Assembly (NCBI RefSeq): GCF_001428895.1
Contig: NZ_LMJA01000003.1
Span: 1,560-65,559, forward strand
Direction of reading: 5' to 3'
Length of the DNA: 64,000 nucleotides
Origin: Mycobacterium sp. Root265
GTDB taxonomy: Bacteria; Actinomycetota; Actinomycetes; Mycobacteriales; Mycobacteriaceae
The position numbers were made by a program, and so were the translations under genes. Shown here piece by piece: positions 8,170 through 64,000 of this stretch (position 1 is the stretch's first letter; every line of letters starts with the position of its first letter). A model generated the notes under the pieces. The model was not told where the DNA came from. It was given only the letters and a program-made list of their open reading frames with translations, and made no database searches.

Positions 8170-9200
8170 CAGGGTTCCCCGCACCTTCCGGTGTTCTGGA
8201 TGACCCATGGGAAGTGGGCTGTACGTCCCTGCAGATCGGACACTCGAATCGAGATTCCACAGAGATAGAGATTCAGCCAGCTCCCATAGGAGCCGAGCCG
8301 GACCAGTTTCCGGTAGTTCTGCGGGGTCTTCTGCAGGACGAGGTCGAGACGGGCCAGGTCGGTGTCGTTGGCCAGCAGCGGGGCAAGTCGGGTGAGCTGG
8401 TCCACGGTGCCCGACAACGGCGGGCGCGCCTCGGTGAGCAGGCCTGCCAGCGAGGCTGTCCCGTTGTCCAGTGCGGTGACGGCCTCACCGATCGGGTCGC
8501 GCTCCTGCGCGAGGCCCGTGACCAGACGCTCCAGCCCGTCCACCGCGCCGGAGAACTTCTCGCCGTCCTTGGACAGCACGGTCAGTGTGTCATTGAGATT
8601 GTCGATGAGGCTCTCCACGGTCTGCCCGTTGTCGGCCAACGCGTTGGTGAATGACGATGTCCGAGCGAATAACGACTCCAGGTCACCGCCCTGGCCCTGC
8701 AGGATCTGGATCAGCGAACTGGTCAGCGCATTGACATCGTCGGGGTTGAGTCCTTGGATGACCGGTTTGAGACCGCCGAGCAGAAGATCGAGGTTCAGCG
8801 CCGGTTCGGTCTGATCGACCCCGAATCGCGTGCCGGGTGGCCGGATTCTGGTCGATCCAGGTTGATCGAGGAGTTCCAGGTAACGGTCACCGACCAGGTT
8901 CAGATAGCGCACGGCCACCTTGGTGTTCTCGGTGAGGCGGATGTTGTCATCCGCGTCGAAAGCGACCAGGACAGTGTTGTCCGACTGCAGGTCGACATCT
9001 TGCACCGTGCCTACCCGAATCCCGGAGATCCGCACCGAGTCACCGGATTTGAGGCTCGATGCATCCCGGAACAGAGCCGAGTAGCCCACGGTGGATCCTG
9101 ATCGATATTGACTGAAGATGGCGAAGAGCCCTGCGGTCAACACGACCATCGTGAGGGCGAATGCTCCGAACTTGATTGCCGTCCTGGTCATTGCACTCAT
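8169..9200 (-). CDS. mceB: MCE family protein MceB
   Basis: This encodes 343 residues: N-terminal hydrophobic anchor, MCE domain (LKSGDSVRISGIRVGTVQDV around residues 50-70) and helical C-terminal half, with no Pro-rich tail, as is usual for MceB. Start ATG 9200 overlaps the mceA stop by 4 nt (ATGA); an ATG three codons later is possible. It is a subunit of the Mce lipid transporter. Confidence 0.92.
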   Translation of the reverse strand: MSAMTRTAIKFGAFALTMVVLTAGLFAIFSQYRSGSTVGYSALFRDASSLKSGDSVRISGIRVGTVQDVDLQSDNTVLVAFDADDNIRLTENTKVAVRYLNLVGDRYLELLDQPGSTRIRPPGTRFGVDQTEPALNLDLLLGGLKPVIQGLNPDDVNALTSSLIQILQGQGGDLESLFARTSSFTNALADNGQTVESLIDNLNDTLTVLSKDGEKFSGAVDGLERLVTGLAQERDPIGEAVTALDNGTASLAGLLTEARPPLSGTVDQLTRLAPLLANDTDLARLDLVLQKTPQNYRKLVRLGSYGSWLNLYLCGISIRVSDLQGRTAHFPWVIQNTGRCGEP

Positions 9201-10390
9201 CCGGGTTGTCCGACCTGCGCGGAGTTGCGGGGAGGCCCGTCAATCGGGCCGAACAGTGCCTGTTTGAGGCCGTCGGAGTTCAGCAGGATCCCTTCATTGC
9301 CGTACTGGGCAGGGTTGGCGTTGACATCGGCGATCACGAACGGCGGGCTCTTCTGGAAGGGCACCTTGGGGAGGTCGGTGCACTGCGGTCCGCCGGTGGC
9401 CGCCACCTTGGGCAGGTTCTGCGGATAGCGGTAGCGTTCCTGACCGAGGACGATCGTCTGGAGGAGCACGCCACCGGGCAACGGCGTACCTGGTGCTTTG
9501 GCCAACTGCACCGCGCCGCCGAGCCCGCAGGTCAACGCCGGGTTGTATTCGTTGGTCAAATCGGTGGTCGGGACGAGCAGGTGCATGACGTCGGTGATCG
9601 CCTGTCGGTTGACACCGACCACTTCGGTCCCGGTGTCGGCCAGGCCGATGACGCTCACCAGCAGCGCGTCGAGGTTTTGCCGTTCGTCGACCAGCGTGTC
9701 GCTCATCTGCGTTGCGGCGTCGACGGTGGTGATCAGATCAGGGGATGCATCGGCGTAGGCGGTGATGACCTCGGGTGCCGTGCCGATCTCGTGCTCCATG
9801 GTCGGCAGACTCGGGTCGATCTTGGCGAGAAACCCGTCGAAATCCGCCAGCATCTGGCCGATCTGGTCGCCCCGGCCGTCCAGCGCGGTGGCCAATGCAC
9901 CCAGGGTCTCGTTGAGTTTGGTGGGTTCGATCTTCTTCAATACGGTCGACAGCTGTTCGAAGACCGTGTTGATCTCGACGGTGACATGGCCGGCGTCGAG
10001 CACTTGTCCAGGACGCAGCGCCTGCGCCGAGGGGTCTGGCGGAGACACCAGTTCCACGAATTTCGAGCCGAAGACCGTGGTGGACGAAATGTCCACCCGA
10101 ACGTTGGCGGGGATGATCTCCATATACGACGGATCCATGGCCAGGTGCAGCGCGGCACGGCCGTCGTTGAGAGATTCGATCGATTGAACCGAACCTACCT
10201 GCGCACCATTGAGTTTGACCTTGGCATCGGCGTTCATCACCAGACCCGCGCGTTCGGACAGCACGGTGACCGGAACCGTCGTGGTGAAGCTCCCCCGGAA
10301 CAATCCGACCGAGAGTGCGACGACAGCCAGGCCCACGCCCACCGTCACCAGGCCCACGAGGGGACGTCTGACTTTCGAACTGATCGCCAT
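9197..10390 (-). CDS. mceA: MCE family protein MceA
   Basis: This 397-residue protein is the first Mce subunit after the permeases. It has a membrane anchor (about residues 9-30), an MCE domain (NADAKVKLNGAQVGSVQSI near 52-70) and the conserved helical segment containing KLNETLGALATAL that is characteristic of MceA. It follows yrbEB with a 12-nt gap. MceA proteins are thought to contact substrate at the outer end of the tube. The numbering of the operon is not resolved: the YrbE sequences look similar to YrbE4, but I cannot compare them with all paralogues. Confidence 0.92.
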   Translation of the reverse strand: MAISSKVRRPLVGLVTVGVGLAVVALSVGLFRGSFTTTVPVTVLSERAGLVMNADAKVKLNGAQVGSVQSIESLNDGRAALHLAMDPSYMEIIPANVRVDISSTTVFGSKFVELVSPPDPSAQALRPGQVLDAGHVTVEINTVFEQLSTVLKKIEPTKLNETLGALATALDGRGDQIGQMLADFDGFLAKIDPSLPTMEHEIGTAPEVITAYADASPDLITTVDAATQMSDTLVDERQNLDALLVSVIGLADTGTEVVGVNRQAITDVMHLLVPTTDLTNEYNPALTCGLGGAVQLAKAPGTPLPGGVLLQTIVLGQERYRYPQNLPKVAATGGPQCTDLPKVPFQKSPPFVIADVNANPAQYGNEGILLNSDGLKQALFGPIDGPPRNSAQVGQPG

Positions 10391-10402
10391 CTGCGTTCCG
10401 CC

Positions 10403-53861: not shown

Positions 53862-56690
<2,829 letters not shown>

Positions 56691-56945: not shown

Positions 56946-58076
56946 CTACCGGTCGGCCAGATCCAGCGCCGTCCACGCCAGCGCAGTGGCGCCATCACGC
57001 AGCGCCACCTCGGCCGCCGGACCCACCGCGGCATCGGCGAAAGCCCGCTGATGGTTCACCGCGGGCAATGATCCGATGCCCAGATAGGGGTGGATCGCGG
57101 GCACCACCTGGGACACGTTGCCCATGTCGGTCGAGGCCGTGCGCATGGCCGCGGCCCCCTCGGCGGGCTCGGCGGTCATGTCCCGGCCCAGGTCGGCGGC
57201 GTTGGCGATGAACATGTCCAGGATCTCGTCATCGGTGCGGAACTCCGCATACGGCGGGGATTCGAGTTCGATGTCGAGCTCGCAGCCGGTGCCCAGCGCA
57301 CCCGCTTCGAAACAGTTGCGGATCCGGCGTTCGATGCCGGCCAGGTCGGCGAGGGTGCGGGCCCGCACATACCAGCGGCCGGTCGCCGAATCCGGGATCG
57401 CGTTGGGCGCGGACCCCGCATCGGTGACCACCCCGTGCACCCGGGTGGTCGGGGGCAACTGCTGGCGCAGCAACCCGATCGCCACCTGCGCCACGGTGAA
57501 CGCGTCGGCGGCGTTCACCCCGAGATGCGGATAGGCGCCCGCGTGCGCGCTCACACCGCGGTAGCGGACCCGCCAGTGCGCGACAGCCAGCGGTTCGGCC
57601 CGCGGCGCGTCGACCGGGCCGGGATGCATCATCAGCGCCGCGTCCAGACCGTCGAACTCGCCGGCGTCCAGCATGGCGATCTTGCCGCCGCCGCCCTCCT
57701 CGGCCGGGGTGCCGATGACGTGCACGGTGATCGCCTGTGCGGTGTCGGCGGCGCGCACCATCAGGGCGGCCCCGATCGCGGAGGCCGCGATCAGGTTGTG
57801 TCCGCAGGCGTGCCCGAGGCCGGGCAGCGCGTCGTATTCGGCGATGAACGCGATGTGCAGCGGCCCGCTGCCGGCCCGGGCGTGGAAGGCGGTGTCCAGC
57901 CCGCCGGCCCGCGGGTCGACGCCGAACCCGCGCTCGGTCAGCAGTGTGGTCAGCATCCGGTGGGCACGGAACTCCTGCCACGCCGGTTCGGGATCGGCGT
58001 GCAGCCGGGTGCTGACGCCGCGCACCAGGTCCCAGTTGCGGGCCAGGTGCTCGGCGGCGAGGGCTTTAGAGGTCAC
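56946..58076 (-). CDS. M20-family amidohydrolase / aminoacylase
   Basis: From GTG 58076 this encodes 376 residues of the M20D peptidase/amidohydrolase family (hippurate hydrolase and IAA-amino acid hydrolase type). Metal and catalytic motifs: [16 protein letters not shown] (Cys91, His93), TPAEEGG (Glu126/127) and MMHPG. It hydrolyses an amide or N-acyl bond with zinc or manganese. It overlaps the DUF1028 gene by 11 bp and ends the operon. Its substrate is probably an amide produced by the upstream steps. Confidence 0.87.
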
Positions 58077-58740
58077 CCGGCACCCCGAAGCTCGGGGCGG
58101 CCGACGGGTCCAGGGCCCGGCGGACATAGTCGTCACGCTGCGGTTCCCACACCGTCCACAACTCGGCCAGCCGGGGGTAGGGGTCCTCCGCCCAGTCCAC
58201 CCGCAGCGTGGTCTCGGGCCAGTCGACCTCCCGGTAGACCAGCAGGCCGGCCGCGTGGATCGGACCCTCCTCGCCGCCGGCCGCCAGTGCGGCGGCCAGC
58301 CCGTCGAGCAGGCGGCGTTCGAATTGTGGTGCGGCGGAATGTTCGTAGCCGCGGATCAGCTCGGTGATGGTCGCCGGACCGGCGAGCATGTTGCCCGCGG
58401 CCACCACACCGTCGCCGGCTGTGTGGTGGTGGGTGCCGAGTGCGCCGGCCCCGCTGAACGCCGCGGACCGGCCCTGGCTGTCCAGCACGGTGAGCTGCCG
58501 ATAGTCACGCAGTTCGTGGGTGTCGACGACGGTGTCCAGCGCGGTCCGGGCGTCGTCGCCGGCTGCCAGCCGGTCCAGTAACCGCCCGCCCAGTCGCGGA
58601 TCGGTGACGTTCTGGCTGGCCGCCGCACCGAGTCCGGGCCGGATGTTCAGGCAGCGCGAGGCCACCGCCGGCGACGAGGACGCGATGATCATGCCGAATG
58701 CCCCGGTGTCGCGGTCGAGCGCGGCAAGAGAGAACGTCAC
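58066..58740 (-). CDS. DUF1028 protein (Ntn-hydrolase-like)
   Basis: From GTG 58740 this encodes 224 residues, opening VTFSLAALDRDTGAFGMIIASSSPAVASRC and containing LGAAASQNVTDPRLGGRLLDRLAAG, GAGALGTHHHTAGDGVVAAGNMLAG, both typical of DUF1028. The family has an Ntn-hydrolase-like fold and no proven activity. GTGA overlaps the Rid gene. Conserved neighbourhood with Rid and amidohydrolase proteins is known for this family, supporting a role in hydrolysing or protecting a reactive nitrogen intermediate. Confidence 0.85.
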   Translation of the reverse strand: MTFSLAALDRDTGAFGMIIASSSPAVASRCLNIRPGLGAAASQNVTDPRLGGRLLDRLAAGDDARTALDTVVDTHELRDYRQLTVLDSQGRSAAFSGAGALGTHHHTAGDGVVAAGNMLAGPATITELIRGYEHSAAPQFERRLLDGLAAALAAGGEEGPIHAAGLLVYREVDWPETTLRVDWAEDPYPRLAELWTVWEPQRDDYVRRALDPSAAPSFGVPGDL

Positions 58741-59153
58741 GACGCCCGCTGCCTGACCGCGATGACGTCCACCTCGACGAGCCACTCCGGTCGGGCCAGT
58801 GCGCTGACCACCAACCCGGTCGACACCGGGTGCACCCCCTTGAGCCAGCGGCCGATCACCCGGTACACGCTCTCGCGATAGCGCGGATCGACAAGGTAGA
58901 CAGTTACTTTGACGATATCGTCGAGGGTCGCCTCGGCCTCGGCGAGCAGGGTGGCGATATTGGTCATGGCCTGTTCGGTCTGCGCGCCGACATCCCCGAC
59001 TCCGACGTTCTCGGAGGTGTCGAGGTCCTGTCCGATCTGTCCGCGGACATAGACGGTGTCCCCGGCGACCACGGCCTGGCACAGGTCGTTGTCCAGATTC
59101 TGTTCCGGGTAGGTGTCGCGGGTGTTGAACGGGCGGATGCGCTGATGGGTCAC
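58737..59153 (-). CDS. Rid (YjgF/YER057c/UK114) family protein, atypical
   Basis: From GTG 59153 this encodes 138 residues, the normal size, with VVAGDTVYVRGQIGQDLD and LAEAEATLDDIVKVTVYLVDPRYRE, clear Rid features. In RidA the imine-hydrolysing Arg105 lies in PARS; here the segment reads GVHPVSTGLVV, so that Arg is replaced by Ser. It thus belongs to the Rid groups without classical enamine/imine deaminase activity. It overlaps HpaB (GTGA) and DUF1028 (GTGA). Confidence 0.88.
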   Translation of the reverse strand: MTHQRIRPFNTRDTYPEQNLDNDLCQAVVAGDTVYVRGQIGQDLDTSENVGVGDVGAQTEQAMTNIATLLAEAEATLDDIVKVTVYLVDPRYRESVYRVIGRWLKGVHPVSTGLVVSALARPEWLVEVDVIAVRQRAS

Positions 59154-60610
59154 GCGGGTATGCCGCCGTTCACCCGGTCGGACAGTTCGGCGGCGGCCTT
59201 GACCATGCCAAGCGGACCGTCGAAATCGAAGTTGCGGTAGACCGCCGCATAGTGCGCGAACGGCGGAGCCTGGGCGAACAACTGGAAGGTGAGCCGGTGC
59301 CCGGCGTAGTCGCTGTTGAGCAGATCGCGCGCGAAGGCCAGCAGCTTGCGCCGGTCGTCGGCCTGCCATTCATCGGTGATCGAGTAGTACTTCTCCAGCC
59401 ACTCCGACGCCCCGGGGACGCCGAAGGTGGCCGAGTCCGGGGTGATGCAGATCTGACCGCCGCACAGTTCGCGGGCCCAGTGCATCATCTGCGGCAGCTG
59501 GGTCTGCGCCCACACCCGGCCGGCCATGAGCAGCGACTGGTTGGGCATCAGCAGGCCACCGGGGCTGGTCTCGGCGGTGGCGATCGCCGCGGTCAGGTGC
59601 GCGTCGATGCCCTCGCGGTAGCAGGCCAGCATGGCCAGCTTCTCCTGCACCGCGGGATTGCTGTCCAGACCGGTCTGCCGGACGTTGAACAGCGCGGCAC
59701 CGATCATCAGGTCGGCGTACCGGATCGACCGGTGCACGTAGGGCAGTGCGCTGTAGCGGTGCAGGCAGCTGCGCACGAAGGTGGCGGCCCGGGTGTGCCG
59801 GTAGAACAGGATGTCGTCCCAGGGGATCAGCACATTGTCGAAGATGACCAGCGATTCGACCTCGTCCACCCGGTTGGACAACGGGTAGTCCGCGGCATCG
59901 CGGCGGCCGGCGAAACCGGTGCGGCAGATGAACTTCAGGTTGGGCGCGTTGAGGTCGGCGATGAACCCCACGGCGTAATCGGAGAGCTTGGCGTCACCCC
60001 AGTTGGCGATCGTGGGTTTGGTGTAGGCCTGGGTCGCGTACGGCGCCGCGGTCTCGTATTTCGCGCCGCGAACGATGATCCCGTCGTCGGTCTCCTTGAC
60101 CACGTGCAGCAGCATGTCCGGGTCCTGATCCTGGGGGCGCTTGGAACGGTCGCCCTTCGGGTCGGTGTTGGCCGAGATGTGGAACGGGTCCCCGGTGGAG
60201 GCCTTCTTCACGTGCCGCCGGATGTTCTCGGCGAACCGGGGGTCGACCTCGTTGAGCACGTCCTGGCCGTCGTAGAGGGCCCACATCTCGCCGACGGTCT
60301 CGTCGCCGACGCGGGTGACCACACCGCGCGCCTCGTCCAGGACGAGGTCGATCGCCGCGCGCTTGTCGTGCCAGTCCTGTTGCGTCAGCGGCATCTTGTT
60401 CGCGATCGAGTTGCGCTCGCCGTTCTCGTCGACGTAGCTCATCACGTCCTGGCTGGCGGCCTCGTGCGCCATATCGTAGATCCGGGCCCTGATGTCCACG
60501 ATCGGGGCGAACATCGGGTGCTTGGTGACATCGTGCACCTGCTCACCGTCGATGTAGATCTCGCGTCCGGTGTTGATGGCCTCGCGGTATTCGTCGCCGG
60601 TCCTGATCAT
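59150..60610 (-). CDS. HpaB-type flavin-dependent aromatic monooxygenase, large component
   Basis: From ATG 60610 (GGAAGGA about 9 nt upstream) this encodes 486 residues of the 4-hydroxyphenylacetate 3-hydroxylase family, an acyl-CoA-dehydrogenase-like fold that uses FADH2 from a separate reductase. Seen: TGDEYREAINTGREIYIDGEQV, MYVDENGERNSIANK-like region, RDQDPDMLLHVVKETDDGIIVRGAK, LKFICRTGFAGRR, VLIPWDDILFYR and RELCGGQICITPDS, all family features. It hydroxylates a phenol or heteroaromatic ring. The flavin reductase gene precedes it with a 4-nt overlap. The ring substrate is unknown. Confidence 0.9.
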   Translation of the reverse strand: MIRTGDEYREAINTGREIYIDGEQVHDVTKHPMFAPIVDIRARIYDMAHEAASQDVMSYVDENGERNSIANKMPLTQQDWHDKRAAIDLVLDEARGVVTRVGDETVGEMWALYDGQDVLNEVDPRFAENIRRHVKKASTGDPFHISANTDPKGDRSKRPQDQDPDMLLHVVKETDDGIIVRGAKYETAAPYATQAYTKPTIANWGDAKLSDYAVGFIADLNAPNLKFICRTGFAGRRDAADYPLSNRVDEVESLVIFDNVLIPWDDILFYRHTRAATFVRSCLHRYSALPYVHRSIRYADLMIGAALFNVRQTGLDSNPAVQEKLAMLACYREGIDAHLTAAIATAETSPGGLLMPNQSLLMAGRVWAQTQLPQMMHWARELCGGQICITPDSATFGVPGASEWLEKYYSITDEWQADDRRKLLAFARDLLNSDYAGHRLTFQLFAQAPPFAHYAAVYRNFDFDGPLGMVKAAAELSDRVNGGIPA

Positions 60611-61134
60611 GCGTGGTGTCCTTCCGTGGTGTGGGCAGAGAGCGTGCGGTACGCGCCGCGCAGATGCAGCAGCGGTTCGGCATCGGTGTGCACGACGTGC
60701 CGCACCTCGCCGAGGTAGAGATGGTGGGAGCCGACGTCGGTGACGCTGTGCAAGGCGCATTCGAAGGCCGCCACGCTGTCGATGTAGACCGGGAGCCCGT
60801 TCACCCCGTCGGCCCATTCGCTGTCGGCGAAGGTGAACGGCAGCCGCCCGTCGCGCCGGCGCCCGGCGAAAGCGTCTGCCGCACCGTGGTGTTCGGGGCC
60901 GAGCAGGGAGACGTTGAACGCTCCACTGGTACGGATGGCCGCGTTGATCGGACTGCGCCGGTTGATGCACACACCGAGAACGGCCGGCTCGTCGGAGACC
61001 CGGCTGACCGCGGACACGGTCTGTCCCCAGCGGGTGTCGCCGGTGTGAGTGGTCACGATGGTCACCGGTGTCGCGGCACAGCTGATCGCGCGGATGAACT
61101 CCCGCGTGCCGGTCGGTGTCAGGGTGGATTTCAC
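60607..61134 (-). CDS. Flavin reductase (HpaC/RutF-like), monooxygenase partner
   Basis: From GTG 61134 (GAGGGA upstream) this encodes 175 residues, the usual size; the frame is open 30 codons further, but that start has no good ribosome-binding site. Split-barrel features: FIRAISCAATPVTIVTTHTGDTRWGQTVSAVSRVSDEPAVLGVCINRRSP and GAFNVSLLG. It supplies reduced flavin to the HpaB-type component. The stop overlaps the hpaB-type start (ATGA). Confidence 0.88.
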   Translation of the reverse strand: MKSTLTPTGTREFIRAISCAATPVTIVTTHTGDTRWGQTVSAVSRVSDEPAVLGVCINRRSPINAAIRTSGAFNVSLLGPEHHGAADAFAGRRRDGRLPFTFADSEWADGVNGLPVYIDSVAAFECALHSVTDVGSHHLYLGEVRHVVHTDAEPLLHLRGAYRTLSAHTTEGHHA

Positions 61135-61223
61135 GTCAGATCCCTCGCAATTCGGGTTCGTGGCCAGGATCGCGGAAGGCAGCGTCGAGATCCGCGCCTT
61201 CGATGCTGCCCTGGTCCTGTCCA

Positions 61224-62243
61224 TCAGGCAAAGAGTTGATTCCGTTGTTCTGCATCGGTTTTCGAGATGTCCATGGTCACGACGACCTTGCCGGCGCGGC
61301 CGGGTTCGGAGAACCTGCGGTGGGCCGCCGCCAGGTCGGCGAAGGCGAACGTCGAATCCAGCACCGGTTGCACGCTGTGCGCCAACACCTTCGGCAGCAC
61401 CTCGGCTGCCACTTCACGGCAGATCGCCGTCCGCATCTCGTCGCACAGCCTGCCCAGGCTGGACGACGAGATCTCCACTCCGCCGGCCATCAGCGCCCCC
61501 AGGTCGACGGCGGCACCCGTGCCGGAGGCGACTCCGACGATGACCAGCCGGCCCAGTGGCGCGAGCACGCCGATGTTGGCGGCCACCGTCGCCGCCCCCT
61601 GGTTGTCCAGCACGATGTCGACGCCCGCGGGCGCCAGCCGCTTGACTGCGTCGAAGACATCGCTCTCGCCGTAGTCGATGACCTCATCGCAGCCGAGCGC
61701 CTCACACAGGGCGGTCTTCTCCGCTCCCCGGGCAGTGCCGATGACGGTGGCGCCCAGCCCGCGGGCGATCTGGACCGCCGTCGAGCCGACTCCCCCTGCG
61801 GCGCCGTGGATCAGCACCCGCTCACCGGGCTGCAGGCGGCCGCGGTGCACCAGATTCCACCACGCCGTCGCGGCGGCCTCCGGCAGCGCGGCGGCCACAC
61901 TCAGCTCGAGGTCGTCGGGGATCTCGATGCAGGCGCCGGACGGGACGGCGACGTATTGGGCATATGCGCCGGCCCGGGTCAGTGCCGCCACCCGGTCACC
62001 GGGGCGCCATCCTGCACCCGCCACGACCACCGTGCCCACGCACTCCAGACCGGGAACACCACCGGGCGGCGGTGGCATCACCCCACGACACTGCAGGATC
62101 TCGGCATTGTTGAGCCCGAAGGCATCGACCGCCACCAGTACCTCGCCGGGGGCGGGCTGCGGTATCGGCACCCGCTCGATGCGCAACGGATGCCGTCCGC
62201 CCGGGTCGCGAAGGACCGCCGCGGCCATGGTGGGCTCGGTCAT
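61224..62243 (-). CDS. Quinone oxidoreductase-like MDR protein
   Basis: This 339-residue medium-chain dehydrogenase/reductase has ALNNAEIL-type N-terminal strands, VPGLECVGTVV, and the Rossmann motif HGAAGGVGSTAVQIARGLGATVIGTA (about 145-170). It lacks the Cys/His zinc ligands of alcohol dehydrogenases, so it is of the zeta-crystallin/quinone reductase type that uses NADPH. Start ATG 62243 overlaps the alpha/beta hydrolase stop (ATGA). An 89-bp gap, free of genes, separates it from the flavin reductase. Probably reduces an enone or quinone formed by the monooxygenase. Confidence 0.87.
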   Translation of the reverse strand: MTEPTMAAAVLRDPGGRHPLRIERVPIPQPAPGEVLVAVDAFGLNNAEILQCRGVMPPPPGGVPGLECVGTVVVAGAGWRPGDRVAALTRAGAYAQYVAVPSGACIEIPDDLELSVAAALPEAAATAWWNLVHRGRLQPGERVLIHGAAGGVGSTAVQIARGLGATVIGTARGAEKTALCEALGCDEVIDYGESDVFDAVKRLAPAGVDIVLDNQGAATVAANIGVLAPLGRLVIVGVASGTGAAVDLGALMAGGVEISSSSLGRLCDEMRTAICREVAAEVLPKVLAHSVQPVLDSTFAFADLAAAHRRFSEPGRAGKVVVTMDISKTDAEQRNQLFA

Positions 62244-63049
62244 CGCAGCACCACATCAGCGTGGAAATCCACCACCGCCCGGGCGAACTCGCTCGGGCAC
62301 GTCTCCGGGCTGGCGATGTCACCGTCGGCCAGTACGTATTGCCTGGCCTGCGGGAAGGCCGCCATGATCCGGTCGTGCCGCGGGTAGGCCCGCGGGTCAC
62401 GGGCTGAGGCGACGCACAACACCGGACCCGGATACCGGCCGACGCCGTCCTCGGAGCGATACGCGGCGACTGCGGCGTGCCCGCGGTCGGGATCGGGATG
62501 TGCCAGCACGTCCCGCACATAGCGCCCCTGCACGTCGGGATCGGGATGGGCCAGATACTCGGCGCGGCGCTGCCACAGCCGGGCGAGGTGTCCGCCGTCC
62601 GGTTCGGTGGCAATATCGTTGAACGGCGGCGCGGTTCGCCGCCGGCGACGCTCGTCCTCGTCGATGAACGGTGTCGATGACAGCACCACTGACAACACGC
62701 GTTGCGGTGCCGACACGGCCAGCTCGTAGGCGACGAGCCCGCCGAAATGATGCCCGACCAGATGGGCGCAGGGCACCCGCAGTTCGTCCAGCACATCGAG
62801 GACGGCAGCCGCCGCCGACTCGATCGTGTTGTCGGGTAACGCTTGTGAAGCGCCGTAGCCGGGAAGATCGGGTATCACGATGCGATACCCCTCGATCAGG
62901 CCGGCGACGGCGCGGAACTCATCCCAGCTACGCGGCGTCTGGTGCAGCAGCACCAGGCAGGGGCCGTCGAGGTGACCGCCCACGGTCACGACGTGCATGC
63001 GCCCGGATCGGGTCTGCACGTACATCGGTGTCGGCTCGGTGCCGCTCAC
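62240..63049 (-). CDS. Alpha/beta-hydrolase-fold protein lacking the Ser nucleophile
   Basis: From GTG 63049 (GGAGG with a 4-nt spacer) this encodes 269 residues with the fold's landmarks: LVLLHQTPRSWDEFRAVAG (oxyanion loop), DLPGYGAS and the nucleophile elbow VGHHFGG, where His101 stands at the usual Ser/Asp/Cys place. The C-terminal catalytic His is also not found: LADGDIASPETCPSEFARAV aligns where GH would be. So both triad residues are replaced. It may bind or rearrange an intermediate instead of hydrolysing an ester; E. coli RutD, as I recall, also lacks a nucleophile Ser. First gene of the operon. Confidence 0.85.
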   Translation of the reverse strand: MSGTEPTPMYVQTRSGRMHVVTVGGHLDGPCLVLLHQTPRSWDEFRAVAGLIEGYRIVIPDLPGYGASQALPDNTIESAAAAVLDVLDELRVPCAHLVGHHFGGLVAYELAVSAPQRVLSVVLSSTPFIDEDERRRRRTAPPFNDIATEPDGGHLARLWQRRAEYLAHPDPDVQGRYVRDVLAHPDPDRGHAAVAAYRSEDGVGRYPGPVLCVASARDPRAYPRHDRIMAAFPQARQYVLADGDIASPETCPSEFARAVVDFHADVVLR

Positions 63050-63125
63050 ATGGCCTCCAATACGGGTCAAGGTCCTTGACTCGATCCAAGACGCGTCCGG
63101 CTTGCGGAGCAAACAGTGAATAGTG

Positions 63126-63159
63126 CTGCATCACATCGGATTAACAGATGCAGTGCATC
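63126..63159. promoter_or_regulatory. Putative LysR operator upstream of the catabolic operon
   Basis: The sequence holds a dyad CTGCATC (63126-63132) / GATGCAG (63147-63153) and, overlapping it, the palindrome GATGCAGTGCATC (63147-63159). It lies 77-110 nt upstream of the alpha/beta hydrolase start and 30-63 nt beyond the 3' end of the LysR gene, where a LysR activator could bind to drive the operon. The gap from 63050 to 63188 has no gene. Confidence 0.55.
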
Positions 63160-63188
63160 TACGGAAGCGATCGATCCGGGTGGGTGGA

Positions 63189-64000
63189 TCAGCTCGCGCC
63201 GGTCACCACGGTGCGGCACCGTTCGGCGAAGGCCCCGGCGCGGCGACTCATCCGCATGGACTGCAGTGAGGCCACCACCACCCGCAGCGGTCGCACCTCG
63301 TCGGCGAGCGGGACGGCCACCACCCGGCCGCCCGCATAGGTGCTGTCGGTGGCCGGGCGCTGGTGCAGCAGGCTGTAGCCGTGGTCCTGGGCCACCATCG
63401 CGCGCACCGTCTCGTAACTGCTGGAGCGGTACTGCACGTTGGGCTGCAGTCCGCGTTCGGTGAAGACGCCGATGAAGTAATCGCGACTGAAGGGCAGATC
63501 GACCAGGATCATCGGTTCGTCGACCAGGTCGGCGAGTTTTACGCTGTCCTCTCCGGCCAGCCGGTGCGCGGCCGGAAGTGCTGCGTAGGGGTGGATTTCG
63601 GCCAACACGTCGCGATCGATACCGTCACCGAGCGCCAGGTCGTAGGTCAGGGCCACCTCGGCCCGGCCCGATTCCAGGTACTCGCTCACCTCACCGGCGA
63701 CGGCCTCGGTGACGTGCACTTCCAGGCCGGGGTGGTCCCGTTTCAGCCCCGCCAGGATCGACGGGAGGTAGAACGGCGCGATCGGGCTGAAACACACCAC
63801 GTGCAGCGGACCCCAGAATGCCTGCGCCTCACCGGCGATCGATTCCAGCGATTCGGCAAGTGCGGTGAGCGTCTGGCGGGCGCGGAGCAGCAACTCTTTG
63901 CCGGCCGCGGTGAGGATGAGCCCCTTGGCATGCCGCCGGATGAACAGCTGGACGCCCAGCTCCTTCTCCAGGTGGGCGACGGCCGAGGACACCGCCGACT
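63189..64000 (-). CDS. LysR-family transcriptional regulator, N-terminus cut by window end
   Basis: This encodes at least 270 residues running off the right edge. The first visible residues SAVSSAVAHLEKELGVQLFIRRHAKGLILTAAG are the end of the LysR winged helix (recognition helix and wing), so only about 30 N-terminal residues are missing. The remainder is the ligand-binding domain. It lies directly upstream of the catabolic operon in the same orientation and most likely activates it in response to a pathway intermediate, as LysR regulators of aromatic catabolism do. Confidence 0.9.
   Translation of the reverse strand, partial: SAVSSAVAHLEKELGVQLFIRRHAKGLILTAAGKELLLRARQTLTALAESLESIAGEAQAFWGPLHVVCFSPIAPFYLPSILAGLKRDHPGLEVHVTEAVAGEVSEYLESGRAEVALTYDLALGDGIDRDVLAEIHPYAALPAAHRLAGEDSVKLADLVDEPMILVDLPFSRDYFIGVFTERGLQPNVQYRSSSYETVRAMVAQDHGYSLLHQRPATDSTYAGGRVVAVPLADEVRPLRVVVASLQSMRMSRRAGAFAERCRTVVTGAS

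Follow-up and report, generated by a model that had tools for sequence, protein, structure and literature searches.

What is the substrate of a compact set of catabolic genes at one end of a 64,000-nucleotide stretch of Mycobacterium sp. Root265 DNA (the window)? Here, on the minus strand, a LysR-type regulator gene is followed by seven coupled genes, which encode an alpha/beta-hydrolase-fold protein, a medium-chain dehydrogenase/reductase (MDR), a flavin reductase, an HpaB-type monooxygenase, a Rid-family protein, a DUF1028 protein and an M20 amidohydrolase. All eight genes are located where a sequence-only reading of the window had placed them, and Pfam confirms their families. That reading compared the set with the Rut pathway and concluded that it belonged to no described pathway. 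Our comparisons point elsewhere. The genes in the window form the downstream end of a 12-gene unit, the first genes of which include a TRAP transporter. From sequence and gene order, it is likely that this unit imports an imidazole acid through the transporter and degrades it by the imidazole-4-acetate (ImAA) route of the hin genes, with HpaB and its flavin reductase replacing HinF. The kind of pathway is known, but as far as our literature search reaches, the exchange of the oxygenase, the exchange of the M20 enzyme and the variant with a TRAP transporter and an arylmalonate decarboxylase (AMDase)-like protein are new.

The hin route and the protein families of its enzymes

According to a review, the hinFLHG genes turn ImAA into aspartate and correspond to PA5393–PA5390 in Pseudomonas aeruginosa, the LysR protein HinK acts in response to ImAA, and the genes are described as common in Pseudomonas and as absent from the Gram-positive bacteria sequenced when the hin paper appeared (PMC8231116). 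A second source gives HinF as an FAD monooxygenase (EC 1.14.13.5), HinL as an enamine deaminase, HinH as an amidase, HinG as an amidase (EC 3.5.1.8) and HinI as an aspartase, and reports hin homologues in Brevibacterium (PMC6467879).

We found a DUF1028 match in 106 of 149 Pseudomonas genomes, some of which carry two DUF1028 genes. Twenty of these places were read, from 19 genomes and mostly from the top of the match list. Eight showed genes for an FAD enzyme, Rid, DUF1028 and an ArgE-like M20 enzyme in full order (one with a gap of ~1.6 kb) and three had the FAD enzyme–Rid and DUF1028–M20 genes as divergent pairs. At four places the genes were split by transporter genes, a HinF-type gene being in view at two of them, and the remaining five had only a distant DUF1028 (36–40%). 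At locus L205 the F-L-H-G order is followed by an aldehyde dehydrogenase gene, a permease-like open reading frame and an aminotransferase gene, fitting HinD, HinA and HinC respectively. The FAD enzyme of the hin-type loci, which we take from its EC class to be single-component, is 67% identical to a Parasedimentitalea enzyme (L011) that matches Pyr_redox_3. On the basis of order and enzyme kind, we propose that the Pyr_redox_3-type FAD enzyme is HinF, that Rid is HinL, that DUF1028 is HinH and that the ArgE-like M20 enzyme is HinG; the papers covered by our literature search do not mention DUF1028. Pseudomonas loci L196, L197, L200 and L209 show another hin-like layout, in which Rid occurs with a type II dehydroquinase-like gene and transporter genes intervene; two of the four also have a quinone-oxidoreductase-like gene.

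By order and enzyme kind, HpaB–Rid–DUF1028–M20 in the window matches hinFLHG of P. putida U and P. aeruginosa, so that the set does have a described counterpart, and in both cases a LysR gene is present in the unit. The Rid protein, whose gene adjoins that of the oxygenase, is 67% identical over 132 residues to Rid of L205, and the DUF1028 protein, encoded in the same slot after Rid, is 45% identical to that of L205. The two systems differ in that the window's oxygenase is of the HpaB type and is accompanied by a flavin reductase, as opposed to the HinF-type FAD enzyme, and in that its M20 enzyme is of the TIGR01891 type as opposed to ArgE-like. In addition, the unit has TRAP transporter, AMDase-like, alpha/beta and MDR genes, and no equivalent of HinA, HinC, HinD or HinI.

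The resemblance to the Rut pathway is limited to the co-occurrence of flavin reductase, Rid and alpha/beta-fold genes. The window's oxygenase is of another family, and scores fall far under the equivalog cut-offs for RutF (81.6 of 254.75 bits), RutC (35.5 of 169.1) and RutD (49.9 of 238.5); the flavin reductase also scores below the HpaC and HsaB cut-offs. The suggested RutD-like role of the alpha/beta protein is doubtful, given that the usual nucleophile is absent and the triad lost. Other elements of the sequence-only reading were sound. The oxygenase has both the N- and C-terminal HpaB domains and a flavin reductase of its own in the unit, and the general scheme, in which oxygenation and opening of a nitrogen heterocycle are followed by hydrolysis of an imine and an amide, is probably correct.

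HpaB in the HinF slot

The placement of HpaB in the route is suggested by two Pseudomonas loci, L063 and L093, in which HpaB–Rid–DUF1028–M20 genes are accompanied by a divergent flavin reductase gene and by aldehyde dehydrogenase and aminotransferase genes. The latter two products of L063 are 78% and 86% identical, respectively, to those of L205. No match to the HinF-type enzyme was found in the two draft genomes at E ≤ 1e-60. In a joined Rid and DUF1028 tree, built from loci with Rid of at least 40% and DUF1028 of at least 42% within 9 kb (103 rows), L063 and L093 fall inside a 17-row Pseudomonas group (support 98) comprising 13 rows with a HinF-type enzyme, two with HpaB and two with neither in view. 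Since HpaB fills the F slot in two Pseudomonas genomes that lack a HinF-type match, the simplest reading of these comparisons is that HpaB and its reductase most likely took over the HinF step in place. A search of the window's source genome (labelled G000) with the HinF-type enzyme of L205 was likewise negative at E ≤ 1e-60; the unit has HpaB and a flavin reductase instead. We also considered that HinF might itself be this HpaB, and rejected the idea: the HpaB clade is confined to 2 of the 149 Pseudomonas genomes and, at family level, to 2 of 398 Pseudomonadaceae genomes, whereas DUF1028 is widespread in Pseudomonas and hin genes are described as common there.

In the HpaB tree, the 12 rows of the TRAP/AMDase type form a single clade (support 100) inside a 31-row actinobacterial group (support 97), other members of which include loci with aspartase or aminotransferase genes. 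This placement supports an ImAA-type ancestry for the window's HpaB and leaves its present substrate unfixed; ImAA itself or a related compound may be what the window's variant uses. Both trees were quick searches with SH-aLRT support only, L019, L020 and L021 being omitted as copies of L139, L130 and L127, and L011, L012, L013 and L014 are long branches in the HpaB tree.

The active site provides a further indication. In Thermus thermophilus HpaB, Arg100, Tyr104 and His142 bind the phenol hydroxyl of 4-hydroxyphenylacetate, whereas Ser197 and Thr198 bind its carboxylate (PMC6506529). In a phmmer alignment, the matching positions of the window's HpaB are Arg100, Glu104, Ser146, Thr200 and Ile201. 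Among 106 clade rows, near-copies included, Arg, Glu, Ser and Ile occur in all 106 and Thr in 105. As two of the three phenol-binding residues are replaced and one hydroxyl is kept at the carboxylate end, a non-phenolic aromatic acetate would fit.

The proposed route would run as follows. An imidazole acid, either ImAA or a close relative, would enter through the TRAP transporter. HpaB, supplied with reduced flavin by the flavin reductase, would add one oxygen to the imidazole ring and give an imidazolone. DUF1028, as the HinH amidase, and Rid, as the HinL deaminase, presumably acting in this order, would open the ring and set ammonia free, with N-formimino- and then N-formylaspartate as intermediates. 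The M20 enzyme, in the role of HinG, would take off the formyl group to leave aspartate and formate. The LysR protein is proposed to be a HinK-like sensor that would respond to the acid as HinK does to ImAA. The suggested intermediates follow from the names of the hin enzymes and from classical work on imidazoleacetate monooxygenase.

Organization and distribution of the unit

The unit lies on contig C3 of the 6.67-Mb genome, and the coordinates of its genes are given in Table 1. In the direction of transcription, the order is dctP, AMDase-like gene, dctQ, dctM, LysR, alpha/beta, MDR, flavin reductase, HpaB, Rid, DUF1028 and M20.

Table 1. Genes of the unit in the window and immediately upstream of it; start codons are proposals.
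Feature	Position	Strand	Basis and remarks
LysR-type regulator, 3' part	63189..64000	-	Pfam; gene start at 64112 (extended coordinate), beyond the window; whole gene L005:10749-11672:-
Alpha/beta-hydrolase-fold protein	62240..63112	-	Pfam; start TTG 63112, GTG 63049 or ATG 63025
MDR family, PIG3-type NAD(P)H:quinone oxidoreductase-like	61224..62243	-	TIGR02824 302.5 bits, above cut-off 296.8
Flavin reductase, proposed reduced-flavin supplier of HpaB	60607..61224	-	PF01613 4e-34
Two-component monooxygenase of the HpaB type, proposed to act on imidazole-4-acetate or a near analogue in place of HinF	59150..60610	-	PF11794 3e-81, PF03241 2e-51
Rid-family protein, proposed HinL equivalent (imine/enamine deaminase)	58737..59153	-	PF01042 3e-24 (Ribonuc_L-PSP)
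DUF1028 protein, proposed HinH equivalent (amidase)	58066..58740	-	PF06267 2.3e-55
M20 amidohydrolase, proposed N-formylaspartate deformylase (HinG role)	56946..58076	-	TIGR01891 191.6 bits, above cut-off 153.75; GTG 58076 start proposed
dctP, AMDase-like gene, dctQ, dctM	L004:669-4400 (extended window about 64109-67840)	-	Upstream of LysR, outside the window
AMDase/EutA-like gene	L004:2521-3321	-	PF17645 1.5e-27

Most junctions overlap, as had been claimed. Among the six junctions of the seven genes, four are 4-base overlaps (alpha/beta–MDR, flavin reductase–HpaB, HpaB–Rid and Rid–DUF1028) and the MDR–flavin reductase junction is a 1-base overlap. The DUF1028–M20 junction is one of 11 bases, given the proposed M20 start. 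The upstream genes dctP to dctM are linked by 4-base overlaps, and dctM and LysR also overlap by 4 bases. On account of these overlaps the 12 genes can be read as a single transcript, although 76–163 bases, depending on the start codon, precede the alpha/beta gene; this is the sole gap among LysR and the seven genes that follow it.

The HpaB clade was found in 18 of 397 genomes of the genus, of which 11, including the present one, carry the window type of locus and seven a permease type. Among window-type genomes the HpaB proteins are 92–100% identical, and all 12 genes were present in each of the 10 further genomes fetched, which argues against a chance assembly. Both flanks of the unit, a MerR-type gene and gcvP, were kept in the 10 other mycobacterial loci fetched, so that the unit is an island with a single location across the genus. 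The same unit occurs in Mycolicibacterium vaccae (L019), Mycobacterium aurum (L020) and Mycolicibacterium bacteremicum (L021). In Nocardia carnea, a TRAP–AMDase–LysR–alpha/beta–MDR–HpaB block is found with the flavin reductase, Rid, DUF1028 and M20 genes ~4.5 kb upstream on the same contig. The permease-type mycobacteria (HpaB 59–60%) have genes for an amino-acid permease, HpaB, DUF1028, M20, aspartase and LysR in all seven cases and Rid in six; no TRAP, AMDase-like, alpha/beta, MDR or flavin-reductase match was found in these seven stretches.

More widely, a scan of genome contigs for HpaB gave at least 595 pattern matches, 555 of them confirmed, and the best 80 were kept as named loci. The neighbourhood table leaves out L001–L003, L005 and the short loci L099–L121 and L140–L195, and several loci stop at contig ends. 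Within 8 kb of HpaB, Rid was present at 73 of the 80 named loci, DUF1028 at 70, both at 66, flavin reductase at 64, LysR at 64, an M20 gene of either kind at 49, aspartase at 12 and aminotransferase at 8. Amycolatopsis locus L086 groups aminotransferase, aldehyde dehydrogenase, LysR, reductase, HpaB, Rid, DUF1028, M20 and aspartase genes. Outside Pseudomonas, the aminotransferase near the clade is only 34–38% identical to that of L063. The clade occurs in actinobacteria, in proteobacteria and on one Bacillus plasmid. Among plasmid records, the 15 best HpaB matches listed cover 99% of the query at 54–74% identity, after which the list drops to 37.6% and then to about 27–30%; the plasmid tally counts 14 records at 60–80% identity, 13 of them among those listed. 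Eleven of the 15 clade records were examined (H1, H3, H5 and H9 were left out), three of which lack annotation.

The M20 types divide along taxonomic lines. Of 23 actinobacterial loci, 20 show the window type within 8 kb of HpaB, one shows the ArgE-like type and two show neither; of 57 Pseudomonadota loci, 28 have the ArgE-like type, none the window type and 29 neither. It therefore seems that the deformylase step has been filled twice. The window's M20 enzyme gave no blastp match at E ≤ 1e-3 to the ArgE-like M20 enzymes of L205 or L063. A paralogue 46.7% identical to it, adjoining another M20 gene, lies elsewhere in its own genome (L006, within 9031–10400; G000:C8) and accounts for the second DNA match of the genome search.

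Several other genes were seen in or beside HpaB clusters. In Paracoccus aminophilus (L009:16950–18122), Pfam detects a fusion between a flavin reductase and the ligand-binding domain of a LysR-type protein, and adjoining matches to the same two domains are also present in L010, L016 and L018. FAD-synthetase-like genes are located at L007:8529–9503 (Aminobacter), L009:18789–19592 (Paracoccus) and L013:13487–14059 (a Bacillus badius plasmid), and HutD-family genes lie beside the Aminobacter (L007) and Paracoccus (L009) clusters.

Points against the ImAA route and competing explanations

A number of observations weigh against an ImAA route with HpaB in place of HinF. The window-type unit has neither histamine-to-ImAA genes nor an aspartase gene; the best aspartase match in the source genome is at 43% and is probably a fumarase. 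Copper amine oxidase, sought as a histamine oxidase, is encoded by two genes in this genome and says little, since seven of eight genomes of both types have one. The M20 enzyme does not belong to the HinG subfamily. Within 8 kb of HpaB, M20 was not seen at 31 and DUF1028 at 10 of the 80 named loci, contig ends included. At the active site only one of the two carboxylate-binding hydroxyls is kept, and Glu, Ser and Thr do not single out the clade, because the single outgroup row (L014, 38%) has them too. The equation of HinH with DUF1028 and of HinF with the Pyr_redox_3-type enzyme depends on gene order and enzyme kind. The clade is rare in Pseudomonas and Pseudomonadaceae, as noted above, and as L063 and L093 are closely related, with 96% identity between their HpaB proteins, the swap seen there may be one event. 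The seven permease-type mycobacterial HpaB rows form a long branch that does not belong to the actinobacterial group. Furthermore, the two oxygenases can coexist. When 21 genomes were searched with the HinF-type enzyme of L205, three had a HinF-type gene at 66–68%, namely the window-type genomes G227 and G208 (66 and 67%) and the permease-type genome G041, and five had only paralogues at 40–43%. Both oxygenases are also present in L011 and L012 and, more loosely, in L024, where the HinF-type gene is ~9 kb from HpaB. Since some genomes and loci hold both enzymes, HpaB may serve a different imidazole acid.

This last consideration leads to the strongest competitor, which we regard as possible but clearly less likely than the ImAA route. 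Here the TRAP-type island would degrade an imidazole or other azole acid distinct from ImAA, such as an imidazole dicarboxylate or an imidazoleacetate with an N-methyl group; the AMDase-like, alpha/beta (His/Asp) and quinone-oxidoreductase-like MDR proteins would prepare the substrate for the shared HpaB–Rid–DUF1028–M20 core, and the Glu-for-Tyr HpaB would oxidise the azole ring. The restricted occurrence of the three accessory genes is consistent with this idea, as they lie near HpaB in only 15 of 109 loci, that is, the 12 rows of one clade and three duplicate loci. So is the AMDase-like protein, in which the active-site layout GTSxSF plus SC (the second-site Cys), judged by alignment to 3dg9, is kept in all 15 rows, representing 12 distinct genomes. 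A separate HinF-type gene, which occurs in two of 11 mycobacterial genomes and in G208 stands beside Rid, DUF1028, M20 and aldehyde dehydrogenase genes, points the same way. On the other hand, in nine of these 11 genomes no match to the HinF-type enzyme exceeds 43% identity, so HpaB could serve ImAA there; TRAP and MDR genes of other kinds also lie near HpaB in L050 and in the Aminobacter cluster; and our literature search gave no report of such an acid entering the hin route. Two details of the coexisting systems may be recorded. The HinF-type gene of G227, whose HpaB is the nearest to that of the window (99%), carries one in-frame TGA (L221; G227:C3:173898–175190), and the HinF-type enzyme–Rid–DUF1028–M20 set beside aldehyde dehydrogenase in G208 (L219) looks like a second, canonical system.

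Neither of the two remaining explanations involves an imidazole, and both appear improbable. The PyrA/PyrE route for pyridine combines a two-component flavin oxygenase with an amidohydrolase, and this combination is reminiscent of the window, where HpaB would open a pyridine or hydroxypyridine ring and Rid and M20 would finish the amide. However, the hin gene order, the presence of HpaB in the hin slot of two Pseudomonas genomes and the aspartase, aminotransferase and HutD neighbours indicate an imidazole, and a succinate-semialdehyde step was not found in the 12-gene unit, which makes a pyridine ring an unlikely target. Ring opening of this or a nicotinate-like kind had been our first idea; it was dropped when the literature search gave no matching gene set and the neighbours indicated otherwise. 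Homarine and trigonelline, considered for Pot-type ABC genes in relatives, were likewise set aside, the search having given nothing on this gene set. Hydroxylation of a phenol or aminophenol, the usual HpaB reaction, is somewhat less probable still. The HpaB domains score strongly, the closest solved structure by sequence is a 4-hydroxyphenylacetate 3-hydroxylase, and the window's enzyme resembles HpaBC in its family and its two-component design, in keeping Arg100 and in having a hydroxyl residue where HpaB has Ser197. Against this, the equivalog cut-offs for HpaB are missed (222.7 of 480.2 and 146.6 of 885.2 bits), the phenol-binding Tyr104 and His142 are replaced in all 106 rows, and no ring-cleavage dioxygenase was found in the unit.

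If the ImAA route with HpaB in place of HinF is correct, the step of histamine and ImAA breakdown that oxidises the ring would have two unrelated enzymes, the second being a two-component HpaB-type oxygenase that acts on a non-phenolic ring. The literature on histamine, HinF and imidazoleacetate, searched through titles and abstract openings and with most subscription papers, the original hin paper included, outside its reach, gave no HpaB-type enzyme for this step. The prediction would also tie DUF1028 to a defined pathway slot (HinH), suggest how actinobacteria run the hin route with a different M20 enzyme and extend a hin-type route to mycobacteria, where the clade occurs in 18 of the 397 genomes. 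In addition, it would offer a natural setting for an AMDase-like protein. Should a different azole acid be the substrate, this setting would be a physiological one, and the chemistry would be new in this context.

Accessory proteins and flanking genes

In arylmalonate decarboxylase only one Cys is catalytic, and Gly occupies the site of the first Cys. The AMDase-like protein encoded upstream of LysR shows this arrangement in all 15 rows, with the GTSxSF loop and the second-site Cys, but misses the equivalog cut-offs for both arylmalonate decarboxylase and EutA (106.4 of 225 and 124.6 of 318 bits). The alpha/beta protein was judged beside ordinary family members, in which serine or aspartate is the nucleophile. 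In all 15 rows (12 distinct genomes) it has His at the nucleophile position and Asp at that of the C-terminal catalytic His, and is therefore probably no ordinary hydrolase. The MDR protein is 42.6% identical to the product of a quinone-oxidoreductase-like gene of the Aminobacter cluster.

The dctP product has 4p47 as its nearest solved relative by sequence (E 3e-50). The best PDB sequence matches of the LysR protein are 6m5f (6e-63) and 3fzv (7e-63), followed by 2ql3 (9e-33) and OxyR/CysB at about 1e-20. The 6m5f protein may be HinK; its entry reads only 'Probable transcriptional regulator', and the texts searched give no PDB code for HinK. The flanking stretches of the unit lie at window positions 53862–56690 on the gcvP side and at L004:4769–7965 for the MerR-type block, in which the names GarA-like and GcvH-like are our assumptions from resemblance.

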